NCBI GenBank assembly: GCA_016350165.1 | Contig: CP066225.1 | Location: 3,906,001 to 3,970,000, forward strand | Direction: 5' to 3' | Length of the DNA: 64,000 nucleotides | From: Planctomycetota bacterium | Lineage (GTDB): Bacteria; Planctomycetota; Phycisphaerae; Phycisphaerales; Phycisphaeraceae | Part shown: positions 47,320 to 53,684 of the stretch, piece by piece | Position numbering within the stretch: the first letter of the stretch is position 1 | Layout of the letters: each line of letters starts with the position of its first letter | Translations under genes and position numbers: made by a program | The notes under the pieces: model-generated | What the model saw: only the letters and a program-made list of their open reading frames with translations | Told to the model about the DNA's origin: nothing | The model's database searches: none

Positions 47320-48360
47320 ATGAGTGAAACAGAGCAACAGCAGCCAGCTAATGCGGGCGGTCAAAAAGCGTCGGCACCGGTACATCCGCTGGCAGCGTTG
47401 CGTGCGGATCTTGCTGAATTTGGCACGATAACACTGTCACATATGGGTAAAAAAAAGTCGGTATCTGAGAGGTACATGCCTTTTCTTATCTCGTTGGCGA
47501 TTCATATTGGGCTGGTGATCTCAGCAATTTTTGCAGTTTGGACGACGATCGTGGTGGTATCAGACCAGCAAACGGTCGTGCCTGAGATACAGTTGGGAGA
47601 GACGCCGGGCAAGCCGCTGAAAAAATCGCGTGATCTGAAACTTGAAGCACAATCACTTACAAGTAAGCGAACGATTACTGAGATTGAGGTTGCTCAATCG
47701 ACGCTATCGCCTCAGCCGATTACAGATATGCCAATGATTGGTGTGTCAGGTGGGATGAGCAAGGTCAATCCTTTTGCTGCAGACCTTGCAGGTGGTTCGG
47801 AATTTCGAACATCGTTCTTTGGCTCATCGGGCAATGCTCGCACGATTGTTTTTGTCGTGGACGCATCAGGCTCATTGATTGATACGTTGCCGATTGTTTT
47901 GAGGGAGCTGCAGAAATCGATTCGGAAACTATCGGATCGACAGAATTTTACTGTTGTGTTCTTTCAAGGAACTAATGCGTTTGAGGTGCCGCCCCGAGGG
48001 TTGAAACAGGGGACAGCAAAGCACAAGCAAGCAGTGATCGAATGGATTGATCCGGATGCTCATAACGTTGTACCTGGGCAGCAAACCAACCCGCTGCGTG
48101 CGATCAATATAGCGTTGAAGTATAACCCTGATCTTGTGTTCTTATTGTCAGATAATATCACAGGGCAAGGTCAGTTTGAAGTAAATCAGAAACAATTGAT
48201 CCGTGAAATCGTACGAGCGAATCACGCAGGAACCAAGATTAATACGATTCAATTCCTGTATCCAGATCCGCTTGAAACAGAAATTCGACCCGGAACGATG
48301 AAGCTGATTGCTGAGCAAACGGGAGGACGTTTTCTGTTTGTAAAGGAAGACGATATTTAG
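47320..48360 (+). CDS. VWA-domain protein with one N-terminal membrane helix
   Basis: The first gene of the five-gene operon. From the ATG at 47320 it has 346 residues: a polar cytoplasmic start, one helix (about 54-80), an external linker, then a von Willebrand A domain. The domain opens TIVFVVDASGSLIDTLPIVL, with MIDAS residues Asp181, Ser183 and Ser185 (DASGS), and later has LVFLLSDNITGQG. The layout, a single helix and a long external arm, recalls TonB/TolA. VWA domains bind partners through a metal ion. The link to ExbB/ExbD proteins downstream suggests a force-driven envelope role; that is inference. The ribosome site is weak. Confidence 0.8.
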   Translation: MSETEQQQPANAGGQKASAPVHPLAALRADLAEFGTITLSHMGKKKSVSERYMPFLISLAIHIGLVISAIFAVWTTIVVVSDQQTVVPEIQLGETPGKPLKKSRDLKLEAQSLTSKRTITEIEVAQSTLSPQPITDMPMIGVSGGMSKVNPFAADLAGGSEFRTSFFGSSGNARTIVFVVDASGSLIDTLPIVLRELQKSIRKLSDRQNFTVVFFQGTNAFEVPPRGLKQGTAKHKQAVIEWIDPDAHNVVPGQQTNPLRAINIALKYNPDLVFLLSDNITGQGQFEVNQKQLIREIVRANHAGTKINTIQFLYPDPLETEIRPGTMKLIAEQTGGRFLFVKEDDI

Positions 48361-48487
48361 TGATATAAGTGCCAAGAAATCAGGTGTTTGTAGTCATTGT
48401 CTTTCTTGGATAATTGGGCAAAAAACTTTACAATAAATCGAGATCATGGGAAATAAACATAATCACAGCTTGTATAGGAAGAACTAT

Positions 48488-49636
48488 ATGCGACAGAGTG
48501 TCGTTGTAGCTTTTGGATTGCTGCTGTTGTTGTCGCCAGCAACACAAGTTTTCGCGCAAGAAGAAGGCGGAAGTGTGTCATGGTTCTCGCAGTTCCTGTG
48601 GGCAGATGACTTTCTTGGGGTTGTGATCATTTGGGCGTTGCTTGCAATGTCTGCATTTTCAATAGGTTTTTCAACGAATCTATTGATCCAGTATCGCCGT
48701 AAGAAAGTGATGCCTGAAGAAGTGCTCAAACGTATTGAAGTGCAATTGGGCAATCGACAATACAGAGCTGCGATCACTGAAGCTGATAACAATAACTCTT
48801 ACCTAAGTAAGATCGTAGCCGCTGCGTTGCACGAAGCACCGAATGGTTTCGCTGCAATGGAAAGGGCGATCGAAGAAACATCCGACAACGAAACGGTAAA
48901 GATTTTAAGACCACTTGAGTATCTAAATGTACTCGGCAATATCGCACCTATGATCGGTTTGTTCGGTACTGTCTACGGTATGATTCGAGCATTCCAGCAG
49001 TTAGTTGTTTCAGGTGGTAATGCAGATCCTTCAGAATTGGCTGCAGGTATTTCAACAGCATTGATCACAACATTCTGGGGCTTGGTAGTTGCTGTTCCAG
49101 CACTGGCAAGCTATGCACTGATTAGAAATAAAGTGGATACGTTTGCATCTGAAGCAATCTTGGCAGTAGAAAGCCTGATTGCTCCATTTAAGCCAACACC
49201 TTTAGCTGCTCAACAAGCAAGGGCCGCTCAGATGCAGCAACAACAAGCTGCACAGACGCAAGCTCAAGCACAAATGCAGTCACAAGTGGATGCAGGGCAA
49301 GTAGCTCAACAGCAGCAGCAAGTTCAACCTGTTGCAATGCAGCCGAATCCTCAAATGCAGCAACAGCAGCCTGTTAATCCCCAACCTGTACAACCAACTC
49401 AACCTATGCCCGCAAATCCCCAGCCGGTCATGCCGCAACCACAGGCAATGCCTCAACAGCAACCAATGCAACCCAATCCTCAGGCCCAACCAAATCCAAT
49501 GATGGATGCGACACAGCAGTTGAGTGATGCAGCCAATCAGCAGCCTGATGTTTCGCATCGCATGGCTTCCTCGCCTTTACTCTCTGCTGCCGCTCAGCAT
49601 CAGCAGCAATTACAGCAGCGTAAAGACAAGCCGTAA
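48488..49636 (+). CDS. MotA/TolQ/ExbB proton channel protein with Q/P-rich tail
   Basis: A 382-residue protein. It has a signal peptide (MRQSVVVAFGLLLLL, cleavage near VFA-QE), a first helix (about 43-65) and two channel helices in LNVLGNIAPMIGLFGTVYGM and STALITTFWGLVVAVPALAS, the ExbB/TolQ core. The final 130 residues are low-complexity, rich in Q, P, M and N, and not part of the family. The ATG at 48488 follows AGGAAG; an ATG at 48446 has no site. ExbB-type proteins use the proton gradient with ExbD to energise envelope processes. The spacing to the next gene is 44 bases. Confidence 0.93.
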   Translation: MRQSVVVAFGLLLLLSPATQVFAQEEGGSVSWFSQFLWADDFLGVVIIWALLAMSAFSIGFSTNLLIQYRRKKVMPEEVLKRIEVQLGNRQYRAAITEADNNNSYLSKIVAAALHEAPNGFAAMERAIEETSDNETVKILRPLEYLNVLGNIAPMIGLFGTVYGMIRAFQQLVVSGGNADPSELAAGISTALITTFWGLVVAVPALASYALIRNKVDTFASEAILAVESLIAPFKPTPLAAQQARAAQMQQQQAAQTQAQAQMQSQVDAGQVAQQQQQVQPVAMQPNPQMQQQQPVNPQPVQPTQPMPANPQPVMPQPQAMPQQQPMQPNPQAQPNPMMDATQQLSDAANQQPDVSHRMASSPLLSAAAQHQQQLQQRKDKP

Positions 49637-49680
49637 TTAGGGTTGTTAATTCTGGAAATAAGTACTAATCGACGGATAGT

Positions 49681-50172
49681 ATGAAGTCATTTATTCACAA
49701 ATCTGGACCTGCAACACCAAGCATGAACTTGACTCCGCTGATCGACATTGTCTTTCTGTTGGTTGTATTTTTTATGTTGGCGTCGACGATGGTTACACGT
49801 CAAGCAATTGAGATGACTGTCCCTAAGTTGGATAATCCAGAGACTCATGATCTTAGTGAAGAAAACAGAATTGTGGTTAATATCGCGCCGAAGAGTGGAA
49901 AACGCGATAAAAACAGTCCGTTGGAATTTGAAGGCAAACCTGCATTTGTACAAATCGGTGCTTACGGTATTTTTAAACTTGATGACCATGAAGGAATCAC
50001 TGCAGCATTAAAAGATGTTTATACGAAAAACCCTTCAATTAAAGTGTCTTTACGTGCAGATGCCGCGGTTTATTACGATCACATAGAACCAATTATGTCG
50101 GATATTACCAAGGCAGGAATCAGCACTGTAAATATGGTGGCGTATCTTCCAACCGATGCAGGTAAACCATAA
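49681..50172 (+). CDS. ExbD/TolR-family protein 1
   Basis: A 163-residue protein with one helix (TPLIDIVFLLVVFFMLASTM, about 18-37). The conserved aspartate of MNLTPLIDIVF (Asp22) is the proton-binding residue of ExbD/TolR. The periplasmic domain ends PSIKVSLRADAAVYYDHIEP, the usual V-x-L-R-A-D-x-x-x-x-Y motif. It is 44 bases after the ExbB-type gene and 18 bases before the second ExbD. It forms the ion channel with ExbB. Confidence 0.95.
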   Translation: MKSFIHKSGPATPSMNLTPLIDIVFLLVVFFMLASTMVTRQAIEMTVPKLDNPETHDLSEENRIVVNIAPKSGKRDKNSPLEFEGKPAFVQIGAYGIFKLDDHEGITAALKDVYTKNPSIKVSLRADAAVYYDHIEPIMSDITKAGISTVNMVAYLPTDAGKP

Positions 50173-50190
50173 GAGGAATGTTTTTGCAAC

Positions 50191-50742
50191 GTGAGTGAGC
50201 CAACAGAGCCAACTTCAAATCCACAAGCATTATCGACGATGCCGCCAGTCGCGATCGATAAAGTTGCGCATAAGTCTGTACGTAAAAGACGTGCGTTGCC
50301 GCCTGCAAAGATGCAATTGCAGATTACGCCGTTGATTGATGTGATTTTTCAGTTGCTGATTTACTTTATGGTTACAGCAACATTTGTTGTTGGCGAGGGT
50401 TCATTGACTGCAAACTTGCCTCATGGCGGCGAGCAGGCGACATCAAAAGCAATGCACCCTGAGCAACCTTTGAATATCGTGCTGAAGCCAGTGGGGTATT
50501 CAGATGTGAGCATTCATATTGCAACCTACAAAGTTACTGATTCATTTGTGGATCTGCAGCTGCATTTGGAAACATTGCAGTACGCACCTGATTTAGGGCG
50601 TCGAGGTTTTTACAAACCTGATAACCCGGTAATCATCAAGCCACAAGGTGAAGTGCGTTGGCAACATGTTCTCAATGCATTCAATGCAGCAATCGCTAAG
50701 GGATACACAAACGTTTCATTTGCTAAGAATCAAAAACCCTAA
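50191..50742 (+). CDS. ExbD/TolR-family protein 2
   Basis: A 183-residue protein, start codon GTG at 50191; no ATG is in frame upstream, and the AGAGGA site is farther away than usual, so translation may depend on the gene before. It has a basic cytoplasmic start, then LQITPLIDVIFQLLIYFMVT with the conserved aspartate, and a periplasmic domain ending NPVIIKPQGEVRWQHVLNAF, where the usual R-A-D is K-P-Q. Two unlike ExbD copies beside one ExbB occur in planctomycetes. It probably forms a mixed channel with ExbD 1. Confidence 0.93.
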   Translation: MSEPTEPTSNPQALSTMPPVAIDKVAHKSVRKRRALPPAKMQLQITPLIDVIFQLLIYFMVTATFVVGEGSLTANLPHGGEQATSKAMHPEQPLNIVLKPVGYSDVSIHIATYKVTDSFVDLQLHLETLQYAPDLGRRGFYKPDNPVIIKPQGEVRWQHVLNAFNAAIAKGYTNVSFAKNQKP

Positions 50743-50783
50743 ATTTAGATTCAGTGCACTTAATTTCAGGGTGGGTGGATTGG

Positions 50784-53684
50784 ATGAAAATGATGAAGAA
50801 AAATCGAGCATTGATTGATTGGTATCGCAAACATGGAAATAAAGTTTGTGCAATGGTGCTTGGTCTGTCGTTGGTTGGTGGGGTAGGGCAACTTCATGCG
50901 CAAGAAGTGAATCTTTCAGCAGATATTTCGTCTCTGATTGCTGAAACAGAAATTACAAAGTCTCAAATTGAACAATATCTTCAGCAGCAAGGTGATTATC
51001 ATTTACTATATGTGATTGATGCCAAGCCAATGGATCGACTTGTTGTCGCTGAGCGTCAACTAATCATAACACAACTGCAATTCCAAGATTTTCTCGCACG
51101 AGCACGACAAGCTGCAACGTCTAATGTGCAGCTTGCAAATCAGCTTCAATCACAGGCAATTACAAAATTTCAATCTGTCATTCAGCAGTACGAACGACTC
51201 ATTGATCGGTTCAAAAACTCACCTCGCTTACCAATTTGGCAAACCAATTTAGCAGAGTTTTATTTGCAGCAACAATTGCAATTAGTCAATAGCTTTGCTG
51301 CCGAGGCGTATTGTTTCGGCGTCGCTTCCAAACAACAAGAAGATGCCTACTCAGAATCAGTGCAAAAAGCTTTTATACTTTTAGCCAATGCTGATCGTAC
51401 GTTATACAAGCTTCAAACTACACTACCGCGATCAAAAAATTACAGTGAACTAAATACACAAGGCTTACCTGCTCTGCTATTCGATGAGTATAACGCGAAA
51501 CGTACTCCTTATTATTTAGCTGTTGCTGCAATTTATGTTGCTACTCTCCCAGATAATGATCCATATTTTGCCAGTGATTACGATAAGACAAATGCAACTA
51601 CGATAAGAGCTGAGACGCCTGAAAAAGAACGCGTGCGTTTGCTCAATTTAGCACTAGGTAAACTCGAACCTTATGTGACAGATCAAGGTGATTTAGCTGG
51701 GATACGCTTCCCTGCTATCCTCCACGCTTCACACGCGTTGCTTCTACAAGAGCAGTACGATGCAGTTATTAAATTACTACAACCGCTACAATCATCCACA
51801 CGTCAGGATTTGACGGTATTCACTTCTTACTTATTACGTGCTCACGCAGTCGCGATGAACGCTGATGTAAGTATTGCTTCTGGAGAACTGAGGCAATTAT
51901 TAACGCAACATCCATTTCCGAAGCAATCTTTAGCTTTGCGTATGCTTGTTACCGATGTGATGTTCCGTGTGCAAGAAAAGAAGTCCAGGCAATACGAAAA
52001 GCATGAGCGTGATAAAGCAATTAATACTGCATTTGAAGCATATTATGATCTGCTCAATGATAAGAGTCTCTCCGAATCAGATCAAAAACAGATTCGTTAC
52101 TTTATCGCTCAGCGTTTCGAACGGCTTATGGAGCTTGTCCCCAACATCGATGCACTTCCAGCTGAAGTACGTATCACGATTTCAGATTATGCATTACAGC
52201 ACGCTCAACAAATAGTCGCAACAGGGGCTGATCCAAAGGTAAATAAAGAACTCGCTCGATATTTGAATATGGTCAGTGAGTTAGCCACGTCATTGGATGA
52301 ATTGAATGTTGATCGTGGTATTCGTGCAAGATCGCTTTACAATGCAGCGGTCGCGATTTACTTACCTGATCCAGATACACTTGAAGTGCAGCAGCAAATT
52401 GCGAACAAGCTGACTGACGTTGCGCGTAAGTATCCTCAACAACCAGTATCGCTAAAAGCTATAACGTTTGCTTCGCAGCGTCTTCAATTATTGCATCAAC
52501 AGTATCCTAAGCTGGATCGTATGATTGCAGATTACAGTGCGGCTGCTGAAGTATTGTTTCGCAATTTCTCCGTCTCACCTGCAGCAGATAATCAGCGTGT
52601 TTATTACGCATTCCACTTGCTTCAAACCCATGGCAAGTACGAGCAGGCAGCTTCACACTATAAACTTGTACCATTTGATCACGTGCAATACTTCGATGCG
52701 CAGCGAGAACTACTTTTCTGTCTGGATGCTCAAATCGAAGAGGCCGATGAGGAGAGCCAGACTGCTTTAATCAGGGAACTAGATGTTCATGCAAAACGAA
52801 TTCTTCGTGAAGTAGATACAGAATTAAATCAGGCTCAGTCAACTCAACGTCAAGCCGATCGCATAGACAAAGCAAAGCTTGCTCAGGCGACAGCCCATTT
52901 ACTTTTCGCCGTTAATGCTGAAAGGCAAGGTAAACATGGAACTGCTCTGGAGATGATTGATCAGACCGTAGATTTCAATGAGTTTCCACAACTCATGCCG
53001 CGTGTATTACAAGTACGAATCGGCGCACTCATTGGCGAAAATCGTTTTGCAGACGCGGCTGAGTTGGCAAACACTTTTATGCAATCCAATCCTAGTATCG
53101 CTGCCCCAACCATTGAACGCTTACTGTTAGAGCTTGATGCTGAATTTAAACAGATACTTAAATTCTTTAGCGATGCAAAAGCTTCAGCCACACTCAAGCA
53201 AAAATCGAAAGCAGTGCTGACATTGGTGCAAGCGATGAAGAACGCTAATCAGCAAGGGCATATTAAACCAACGCTCGACGAATCATATTTCGTTTCATTG
53301 GATATGATCGCTGCACGGGCCTGCATGATTACGGATGATCCAGCCAAAGCGATCTCTATCCTTGAAACAAGATTAGATCAATACGGCGACATTCTCGAAC
53401 TTATCGTTTTATACGCTGAAGCTAACTTCATTCTCGACACTAAAGAATCATATAAGAAGTCACGTGACTCATATCAGCTGGTCATCAGTGCGTATCCAAG
53501 TAAGCCATACCCCGCCATCTACTATCAAGCGTGGCTGCGTTATTTGCAAACATGCGATCGGCTGCAAACCGAAATAGAAGATATTCCACTCTATATCAAT
53601 CGTCTGCGAATGCACGATCAAGATTTAGGTGGTGAGAACTTTACCGAAGCGTTCAATGCACTTGAAGATAAATACAATAACTAA
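50784..53684 (+). CDS. large exported helical-repeat (TPR-like) protein
   Basis: A 966-residue protein with a signal peptide (about 1-38, cleavage near LHA-QE). The whole mature chain is alpha-helical, with TPR-like pairs such as HASHALLLQEQYDAVIKLLQ, AFHLLQTHGKYEQAASHYKL and EANFILDTKESYKKSRDSYQ. There is no membrane segment or catalytic motif. The ATG at 50784 lies after GGTGG; a GTG at 50754 is also in frame. It is the last gene of the VWA-ExbB-ExbD-ExbD operon and ends seven bases from a convergent gene. It is probably a periplasmic scaffold moved or regulated by the channel; that is inference. Confidence 0.82.
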   Translation: MKMMKKNRALIDWYRKHGNKVCAMVLGLSLVGGVGQLHAQEVNLSADISSLIAETEITKSQIEQYLQQQGDYHLLYVIDAKPMDRLVVAERQLIITQLQFQDFLARARQAATSNVQLANQLQSQAITKFQSVIQQYERLIDRFKNSPRLPIWQTNLAEFYLQQQLQLVNSFAAEAYCFGVASKQQEDAYSESVQKAFILLANADRTLYKLQTTLPRSKNYSELNTQGLPALLFDEYNAKRTPYYLAVAAIYVATLPDNDPYFASDYDKTNATTIRAETPEKERVRLLNLALGKLEPYVTDQGDLAGIRFPAILHASHALLLQEQYDAVIKLLQPLQSSTRQDLTVFTSYLLRAHAVAMNADVSIASGELRQLLTQHPFPKQSLALRMLVTDVMFRVQEKKSRQYEKHERDKAINTAFEAYYDLLNDKSLSESDQKQIRYFIAQRFERLMELVPNIDALPAEVRITISDYALQHAQQIVATGADPKVNKELARYLNMVSELATSLDELNVDRGIRARSLYNAAVAIYLPDPDTLEVQQQIANKLTDVARKYPQQPVSLKAITFASQRLQLLHQQYPKLDRMIADYSAAAEVLFRNFSVSPAADNQRVYYAFHLLQTHGKYEQAASHYKLVPFDHVQYFDAQRELLFCLDAQIEEADEESQTALIRELDVHAKRILREVDTELNQAQSTQRQADRIDKAKLAQATAHLLFAVNAERQGKHGTALEMIDQTVDFNEFPQLMPRVLQVRIGALIGENRFADAAELANTFMQSNPSIAAPTIERLLLELDAEFKQILKFFSDAKASATLKQKSKAVLTLVQAMKNANQQGHIKPTLDESYFVSLDMIAARACMITDDPAKAISILETRLDQYGDILELIVLYAEANFILDTKESYKKSRDSYQLVISAYPSKPYPAIYYQAWLRYLQTCDRLQTEIEDIPLYINRLRMHDQDLGGENFTEAFNALEDKYNN

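Follow-up and report, generated by a model that had tools for sequence, protein, structure and literature searches.

A VWA-ExbB-ExbD-ExbD-TPR Gene Set Conserved in Phycisphaerae and Its Probable Role as an Envelope Motor with a TonB/TolA-Anchored VWA Arm

Results

Layout of the five-gene set

The window analyzed here is a stretch of 64,000 nucleotides from a Planctomycetota bacterium of the class Phycisphaerae (assembly GCA_016350165.1, contig CP066225.1, positions 3,906,001 to 3,970,000 of the forward strand). Its subject is a group of five neighboring + strand genes at 47320–53684, which encode, in this order, a von Willebrand factor A (VWA) protein, an ExbB, two unlike ExbDs and an exported helical-repeat protein of the tetratricopeptide repeat (TPR) type. 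An initial annotation, drawn up from the letters and their open reading frames (ORFs), had described these genes as one operon for a possible force-driven envelope machine. The ORFs, the Pfam matches and the VWA-fold model agree on a set of five genes on one strand. Genes on the opposite strand flank it on either side, and the intergenic gaps within it are 18–85 bases.

The VWA gene (47320–48360) encodes 346 residues arranged as a cytoplasmic N-terminus, one membrane helix, a linker and a VWA domain. This call rests on the ORF, Pfam, the model and the fold match, the Pfam VWA score being 18.5 bits and thus below the cut-off of 23.8. It is followed by the ExbB/TolQ-like motor subunit (48446–49636), of 396 residues with a long Gln-rich C-terminal tail, and then by the two ExbDs, the first of 163 residues (49681–50172) and the second of 183 residues with a GTG start (50191–50742). 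All three were called by Pfam and alignment. ExbB is matched by Pfam at an E-value of 4.4e-28 and the ExbDs at 6.5e-21 and 2.3e-15, over cut-off in each case; matches to the NCBIfam equivalogs TolQ, TolR, ExbB and ExbD are weak and all below cut-off. The repeat protein (50784–53684) has 966 residues when started from the ATG at 50784, 41 bases after the second ExbD, and would have 976 if started from a GTG at 50754. Its match to Pfam TPR_14 is a narrow pass (24.1 bits against a cut-off of 23.5).

Conservation and spread of the set

At an E-value of 1e-4 a match to the VWA protein is found in 143 of the 150 class genomes, a count that takes in other VWA proteins. Loci around the best VWA match were fetched from 106 of the 142 other matched genomes, high scorers first, and were labeled by purpose-built profiles at an E-value of 0.001. 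ExbB is preceded by the VWA gene in 91 of the 106 loci; 84 of them also have at least two ExbDs, and 80 have the TPR gene as well and are complete. The interpretation given in the initial annotation, which depended on the VWA and repeat genes being conserved beside the channel genes, is supported. Four of the genomes failing at the fetched locus carry the set elsewhere, as does one further genome, which has two sets, and two others have none at the place inspected. In all, the complete set is present in 85 of 109 same-class genomes, every one of them preselected for a VWA match; 33 VWA-matched genomes lie outside this count. The loci are not fully independent: L064 and L133 lie on the same contig, and the ExbD tree shows L068 and L135 to be near-copies. 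A scan of named genomes gave the complete set at 19 of 39 loci, five of the 39 (L162–L166) being plainly other proteins or phyla. Chance co-location of the five genes is ruled out by a gene order and motifs kept across many genomes. No other class-wide neighbor was found in one noisy survey, which returned mostly shadow ORFs of the set, along with families that reached at most 10 of 57 loci.

Some genomes hold more than one copy. The genome G008 carries two complete and different VWA-ExbB-ExbD-ExbD-TPR sets (L241 and L242), and a metagenome-assembled genome (NAT22, L135) has, beside its full set and on the opposite strand, a second ExbB-ExbD-ExbD-TPR set with no labeled VWA.

The VWA protein and its membrane anchor

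An AlphaFold2 model of the VWA protein, made from an alignment of 29 sequences, has a mean predicted local distance difference test score (pLDDT) of 74.9. It consists of a single long helix at residues 48–80, predicted to be the membrane helix (47461–47559), a disordered linker at residues 81–172 (47560–47835), mostly of low confidence and with pLDDT below 50 at 104–170, and a confidently predicted alpha/beta domain that begins near residue 173, the VWA domain (residues 173–345, 47836–48354). Foldseek matches the model to VWA structures, the best being 9c4f chain I (E-value 1.6e-10), which a profile search names as inter-alpha-trypsin inhibitor heavy chain H4. Neither Pfam nor NCBIfam gives a match to a TonB/TolA-type end domain in this protein, which has the VWA fold instead. 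The metal site of the domain comprises D181, S183, S185, T256 and D278. Among 79 aligned VWA ORFs from 61 loci, D181 is found in 79, S183 in 75, S185 in 74 and D278 in 72, and position 256 is Thr in 59 and Ser in 16.

Within the membrane helix sit Ser58 and His62, spaced as the Ser-x3-His of TonB and TolA. In these two proteins the Ser-His pair contacts ExbB or TolQ (Ser16 and His20 in TonB structures), and the His is essential (PMC12215075). His62 occurs in 78 and Ser58 in 74 of the 79 aligned ORFs, and both are invariant in an alignment of 29 sequences, mostly from named genomes (A4). The strongest hydrophobic segment contains Ser-x3-His in 78 of 84 VWA proteins encoded directly upstream of ExbB, compared with 2 of 345 control ORFs; the controls are rough, being unlabeled ORFs of at least 200 residues with a hydrophobic segment from the same loci, many of which are not real genes. 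By a second criterion applied to more loci, the pattern is present in 80 of 91 VWA proteins and in 1 of 1380 ORFs. Among the misses are ORFs whose start is wrong or whose end is cut, and also L063, in which Ala replaces the Ser. The proposal that a VWA protein stands in place of TonB, made in the initial annotation, is therefore well based, as the half of the TonB/TolA motif that contacts ExbB or TolQ is present. Two or more VWA genes are found in 18 of the 84 loci.

Outside the class, among high-ranking hits, VWA, ExbB and two ExbDs occur together at 6 of 20 loci (5 of 16 genomes), with a labeled TPR gene in 3 of the 6, and 11 of the 20 loci have a VWA gene without ExbB nearby. In other Planctomycetota (L171–L175, L177–L180, L187 and L189), VWA proteins with the Ser-x3-His pattern, here a pattern match without the hydrophobicity check, have no ExbB in the fetched stretch. 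These proteins may be orphan transducers that borrow a motor.

ExbB and the unlike ExbD pair

The pore residues Thr175 and Thr209 of ExbB are present in 84 of 84 aligned proteins, and the Ser of the first transmembrane helix (TM1) in 79. The C-terminal tail of the ExbB in the window (49200–49636) is rich in Gln and Pro and about 145 residues long; the ExbBs of most relatives have 210–320 residues and no such tail. The membrane Asp of the channel is found in 81 of 81 first ExbDs (D22) and in 80 of 81 second ExbDs (D50). First and second are assigned throughout by gene order, the ExbD1 and ExbD2 profile labels being unsafe.

It had been noticed in the initial annotation that one ExbD has K-P-Q where R-A-D is usual. 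R-A-D lies at residues 125–127 of the first ExbD (50053–50061) and K-P-Q at residues 150–152 of the second (50638–50646), and this proves to be a class-wide trait of the second copy. The site in the first ExbD is R-A-D in 55 and R-G-D in 12 loci, together 67 of 81, with Arg in 80; at the equivalent site of the second ExbD, R-A/G-D occurs in 0 of 81, the middle position holds Pro in 57 copies and Ala in 17, and the site is followed by Trp in 61 and His in 52. A FastTree phylogeny of 162 rows (81 pairs, no outgroup) has one branch that splits all first from all second copies with a support of 0.962. In an IQ-TREE analysis with outgroups the first ExbDs were not recovered as one group; that tree has three very long outgroup branches, one of which (L009) is wrong-strand junk, and its trimming motif dropped 17 of the 81 loci. 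The ExbD pair is thus old and kept apart, as the tree splits the two copies and their residues are asymmetric. A single D-box strand of TonB is bound by the ExbD homodimer of E. coli (PMC10907165); by analogy, with an unlike pair the side that binds such a strand would be fixed.

The TPR protein and a sixth gene

The repeat protein of the window and most of its 73 relatives begin with a hydrophobic stretch that ends in a signal-peptidase-I-like site, of the A-x-A type in the window, so that export is judged by a hydrophobicity scan rather than by a signal-peptide predictor. A pattern resembling a lipobox was seen in 8 of the repeat proteins listed and is absent from the one in the window. The structure is predicted to be a solenoid built wholly of helices (mean pLDDT 84.5, predicted template modeling score 0.59), and a profile search returns TPR proteins. 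Recurrent features of the alignment are an F-G motif close to residue 179 and a Trp/Leu-Gly-Gly region at the C-terminus. The protein is fast-evolving, since a single-sequence search reached only 17 of 150 genomes and a profile search was needed.

Foldseek places the model among generic solenoids only, flagellar scaffold proteins of Campylobacter included. In that bacterium PflA and PflB form a periplasmic TPR-type solenoid scaffold beside a 5:2 motor. Their structures (PDB 9hmf and 9leq) match at E-values of 8.9e-06 and 7.3e-05, with query TM-scores of 0.11–0.18, and rank below several eukaryotic solenoids; the likeness is one of fold class only.

A sixth gene is present in 44 of the 84 loci, on the same strand and upstream of ExbB, usually between VWA and ExbB, and mostly encodes 340–400 residues. 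Six of its products were scanned, and TPR families were over cut-off in two and weak in three. The product is TPR-like with a signal-like N-terminus, as at L061 (10037–11173, minus strand); the window is without this gene.

Other envelope systems in the genome and the class

TolB, sought by the Pfam domain TolB_N, is found in 1 of the 150 class genomes and not in the genome of the window, an absence at Pfam sensitivity, which may miss a divergent TolB; 3 of 14 control genomes were positive as expected (E. coli, Caulobacter and Bacteroides). At an E-value of 0.001, TonB_C is present in 68 and the receptor domain Plug in 58 of the 150 genomes, and this genome, which is 95% complete, has neither. 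OmpA/Pal-type domains occur in 148 of the 150, with three in this genome. A 2022 study reported that Tol-Pal is largely reduced in Planctomycetes (PMC8871954).

Several other loci of this genome resemble parts of such systems. At C1:2603839–2605617 (L005:1333–3111), ExbB and ExbD are followed by a TonB-like protein with EP repeats and a Ser-x3-His in its membrane helix. At L009:427–1923, on the minus strand, a lone ExbD is followed by a TonB-like protein of 322 residues, which lacks the Ser of the Ser-x3-His and has no Pfam TonB_C. At L004:1162–3354, ExbB and ExbD precede an exported TPR protein, with no VWA gene in the stretch seen. The genome also has the flagellar MotA-MotB and two more ExbB-like genes (L003 and L006).

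Discussion

The kind of machine encoded here is not new. Williams-Jones et al. in 2025 (PMC12204202) already proposed from sequence that vWA proteins with an SHLS motif and its conserved His are force transducers, of unknown function, and described their genes in the Planctomycetes-Verrucomicrobia-Chlamydiae group beside tolQ-like, paired unlike tolR-like and TPR genes, with AlphaFold3 models (Fig. 4a,b of that paper). It is the single description found in a search of the open PMC literature; the words vWA, Willebrand and AglR are all absent from a 2026 review of Ton and Tol motors (PMC12905483). The set in the window agrees with the first vWA family of PMC12204202 in the Ser/His helix, the disordered linker of about 100 residues, the vWA end domain and the neighbors. 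It differs in order, with VWA first and TPR last, whereas the vWA genes described there often lie downstream of the TPR, tolQ and tolR genes. A sixth TPR gene, tandem VWA copies and the R-A-D/x-P-x split receive no mention in section 8 of that paper. Relative to that section, our analysis adds the breadth of the set in the class, the frequent sixth TPR gene, the asymmetry of the ExbDs and the near-absence of TolB.

A proton-driven envelope motor with a VWA arm anchored as in TonB and TolA is the best explanation of the set, and we give it a probability of roughly 0.7. With TonB-ExbB-ExbD and TolA-TolQ-TolR the set has in common the ExbB and ExbD families, the Ser-x3-His anchor and an arm with a disordered linker. 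Unlike those systems it has a VWA end domain, two unlike ExbDs and a large TPR protein, and its genome yields no TolB and no receptor plug by Pfam. The motor would be an inner-membrane complex of the 5:2 type, made of ExbB and a pair of unlike ExbDs. Protons would pass through ExbB-ExbD, and the motor, in turning or rocking, would pull the VWA arm by its Ser-His helix. The VWA domain probably grips a partner further out by its metal site; this partner would be acidic and sit in the outer envelope or else on the TPR protein, which may be a periplasmic scaffold or itself the partner. What the analysis shows is the gene set with its motifs, its conservation and the predicted folds; we infer the proton use, the force, the ExbD heterodimer and the partner binding, and the steps from motor to arm would follow from homology to TonB and TolA. 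As to the force machine of the initial annotation, the gene set and the anchor speak for it, and force transmission would hold by analogy.

Several observations weigh against this explanation. The Leu-x3-Ser half of SHLS is not kept: the window has Ala at position 69 and Val at position 73, and both positions vary in the family. In the linker, a V/I-V/I-P stretch at residues 86–88 is partly kept (P88 in 47 of 79), and a D-box or motor-box strand is not established. ExbB lacks a Trp four residues after the TM1 Ser, a spacing modeled on Ser34 and Trp38 of E. coli ExbB (PMC12215075). The complete set was missing at the places inspected in 24 of the 109 genomes, some of these places being contig ends. 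In addition, the two extra TonB-like proteins of this genome may do other Ton-like work.

The VWA protein might not be moved by the motor at all, and be a static clamp or sensor that places or regulates ExbB-ExbD, or a metal-site regulator. VWA domains often serve as binding modules, the model shows a disordered linker, and the force reading is itself drawn from homologues. Nevertheless, we consider a static role unlikely, since 78 of 84 proteins retain the Ser-x3-His anchor, whose His is essential in TonB and TolA (PMC12215075). A machine for gliding or surface adhesion like Agl/Glt of Myxococcus, with the VWA protein as adhesin, would account for the gene types: AglR-AglQ-AglS comprise, in matching order, one protein of the ExbB/TolQ family and two of the ExbD/TolR family, accompanied by exported TPR proteins (PMC3169522), and a link to gliding is proposed in PMC12204202 itself. 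That machine seems quite improbable here. The VWA protein of Myxococcus, CglB, is an outer-membrane lipoprotein and not an inner-membrane arm (PMC3169522), the likeness to AglRQS is one of gene type and order, and so wide a spread in the class does not suit a specialized motility trait (the motility of these species was not checked).

A TonB-like anchor, an ExbB and an ExbD would also suit a Ton-type importer, whose VWA arm would open outer-membrane receptors as TonB does. This is very unlikely: neither Plug nor TonB_C has a match in the genome, the class-wide counts of 58 and 68 stand against 143 of 150 for the VWA match, and no receptor family was a constant neighbor in the noisy neighbor survey. 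Ton import was rejected as the leading explanation on the zero counts in the genome itself, with a reserve for its two TonB-like proteins below the Pfam threshold. Weak ZorA matches of ExbB (best E-value 5e-4) would point to an anti-phage system of the Zorya type, which uses a MotA/ExbB-like motor. The other four proteins have no PADLOC match and a conserved class-wide set is unlike a patchy defense island, so that Zorya is hardly credible and was rejected.

For the proton-driven motor with a VWA arm, the purpose is probably envelope upkeep rather than TonB-dependent import, because the genome has no TonB_C or receptor-plug match. The set might even do the job of Tol-Pal, in outer-membrane holding and constriction, in Phycisphaerae-type Planctomycetota, through an intrinsically lopsided motor whose ExbDs differ in their outer domains, such that one ExbD would serve the proton cycle and the VWA arm and the other would face the TPR scaffold. 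We offer this tentatively and regard it as rather doubtful. Wide spread alone is no proof of a Tol-like role, and there are other reasons, too, for the presence of OmpA-type proteins. The role is testable, since TolB is nearly absent while the set is widespread, and a class of this composition offers a direct test of the replacement of Tol-Pal. The known force arms TonB and TolA end in one domain type; if the motor explanation is true, a widespread arm ending in a metal-binding VWA domain would imply that cells handle different partners in the outer envelope by exchanging the gripping end of a shared motor. The fixed unlike ExbD pair, moreover, allows one to ask whether the two subunits of the motor have separate jobs.

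A second vWA family described in PMC12204202 consists of TolQ-like proteins with vWA pairs and no tolR/exbD, where vWA replaces ExbD. A TolQ-like protein beside vWA is shared with the window, which differs in keeping both ExbDs and a VWA protein with the Ser/His anchor. One locus from a metagenome-assembled genome of Gammaproteobacteria (L164), with ExbB followed by two VWA genes and no ExbD seen, resembles this second family.

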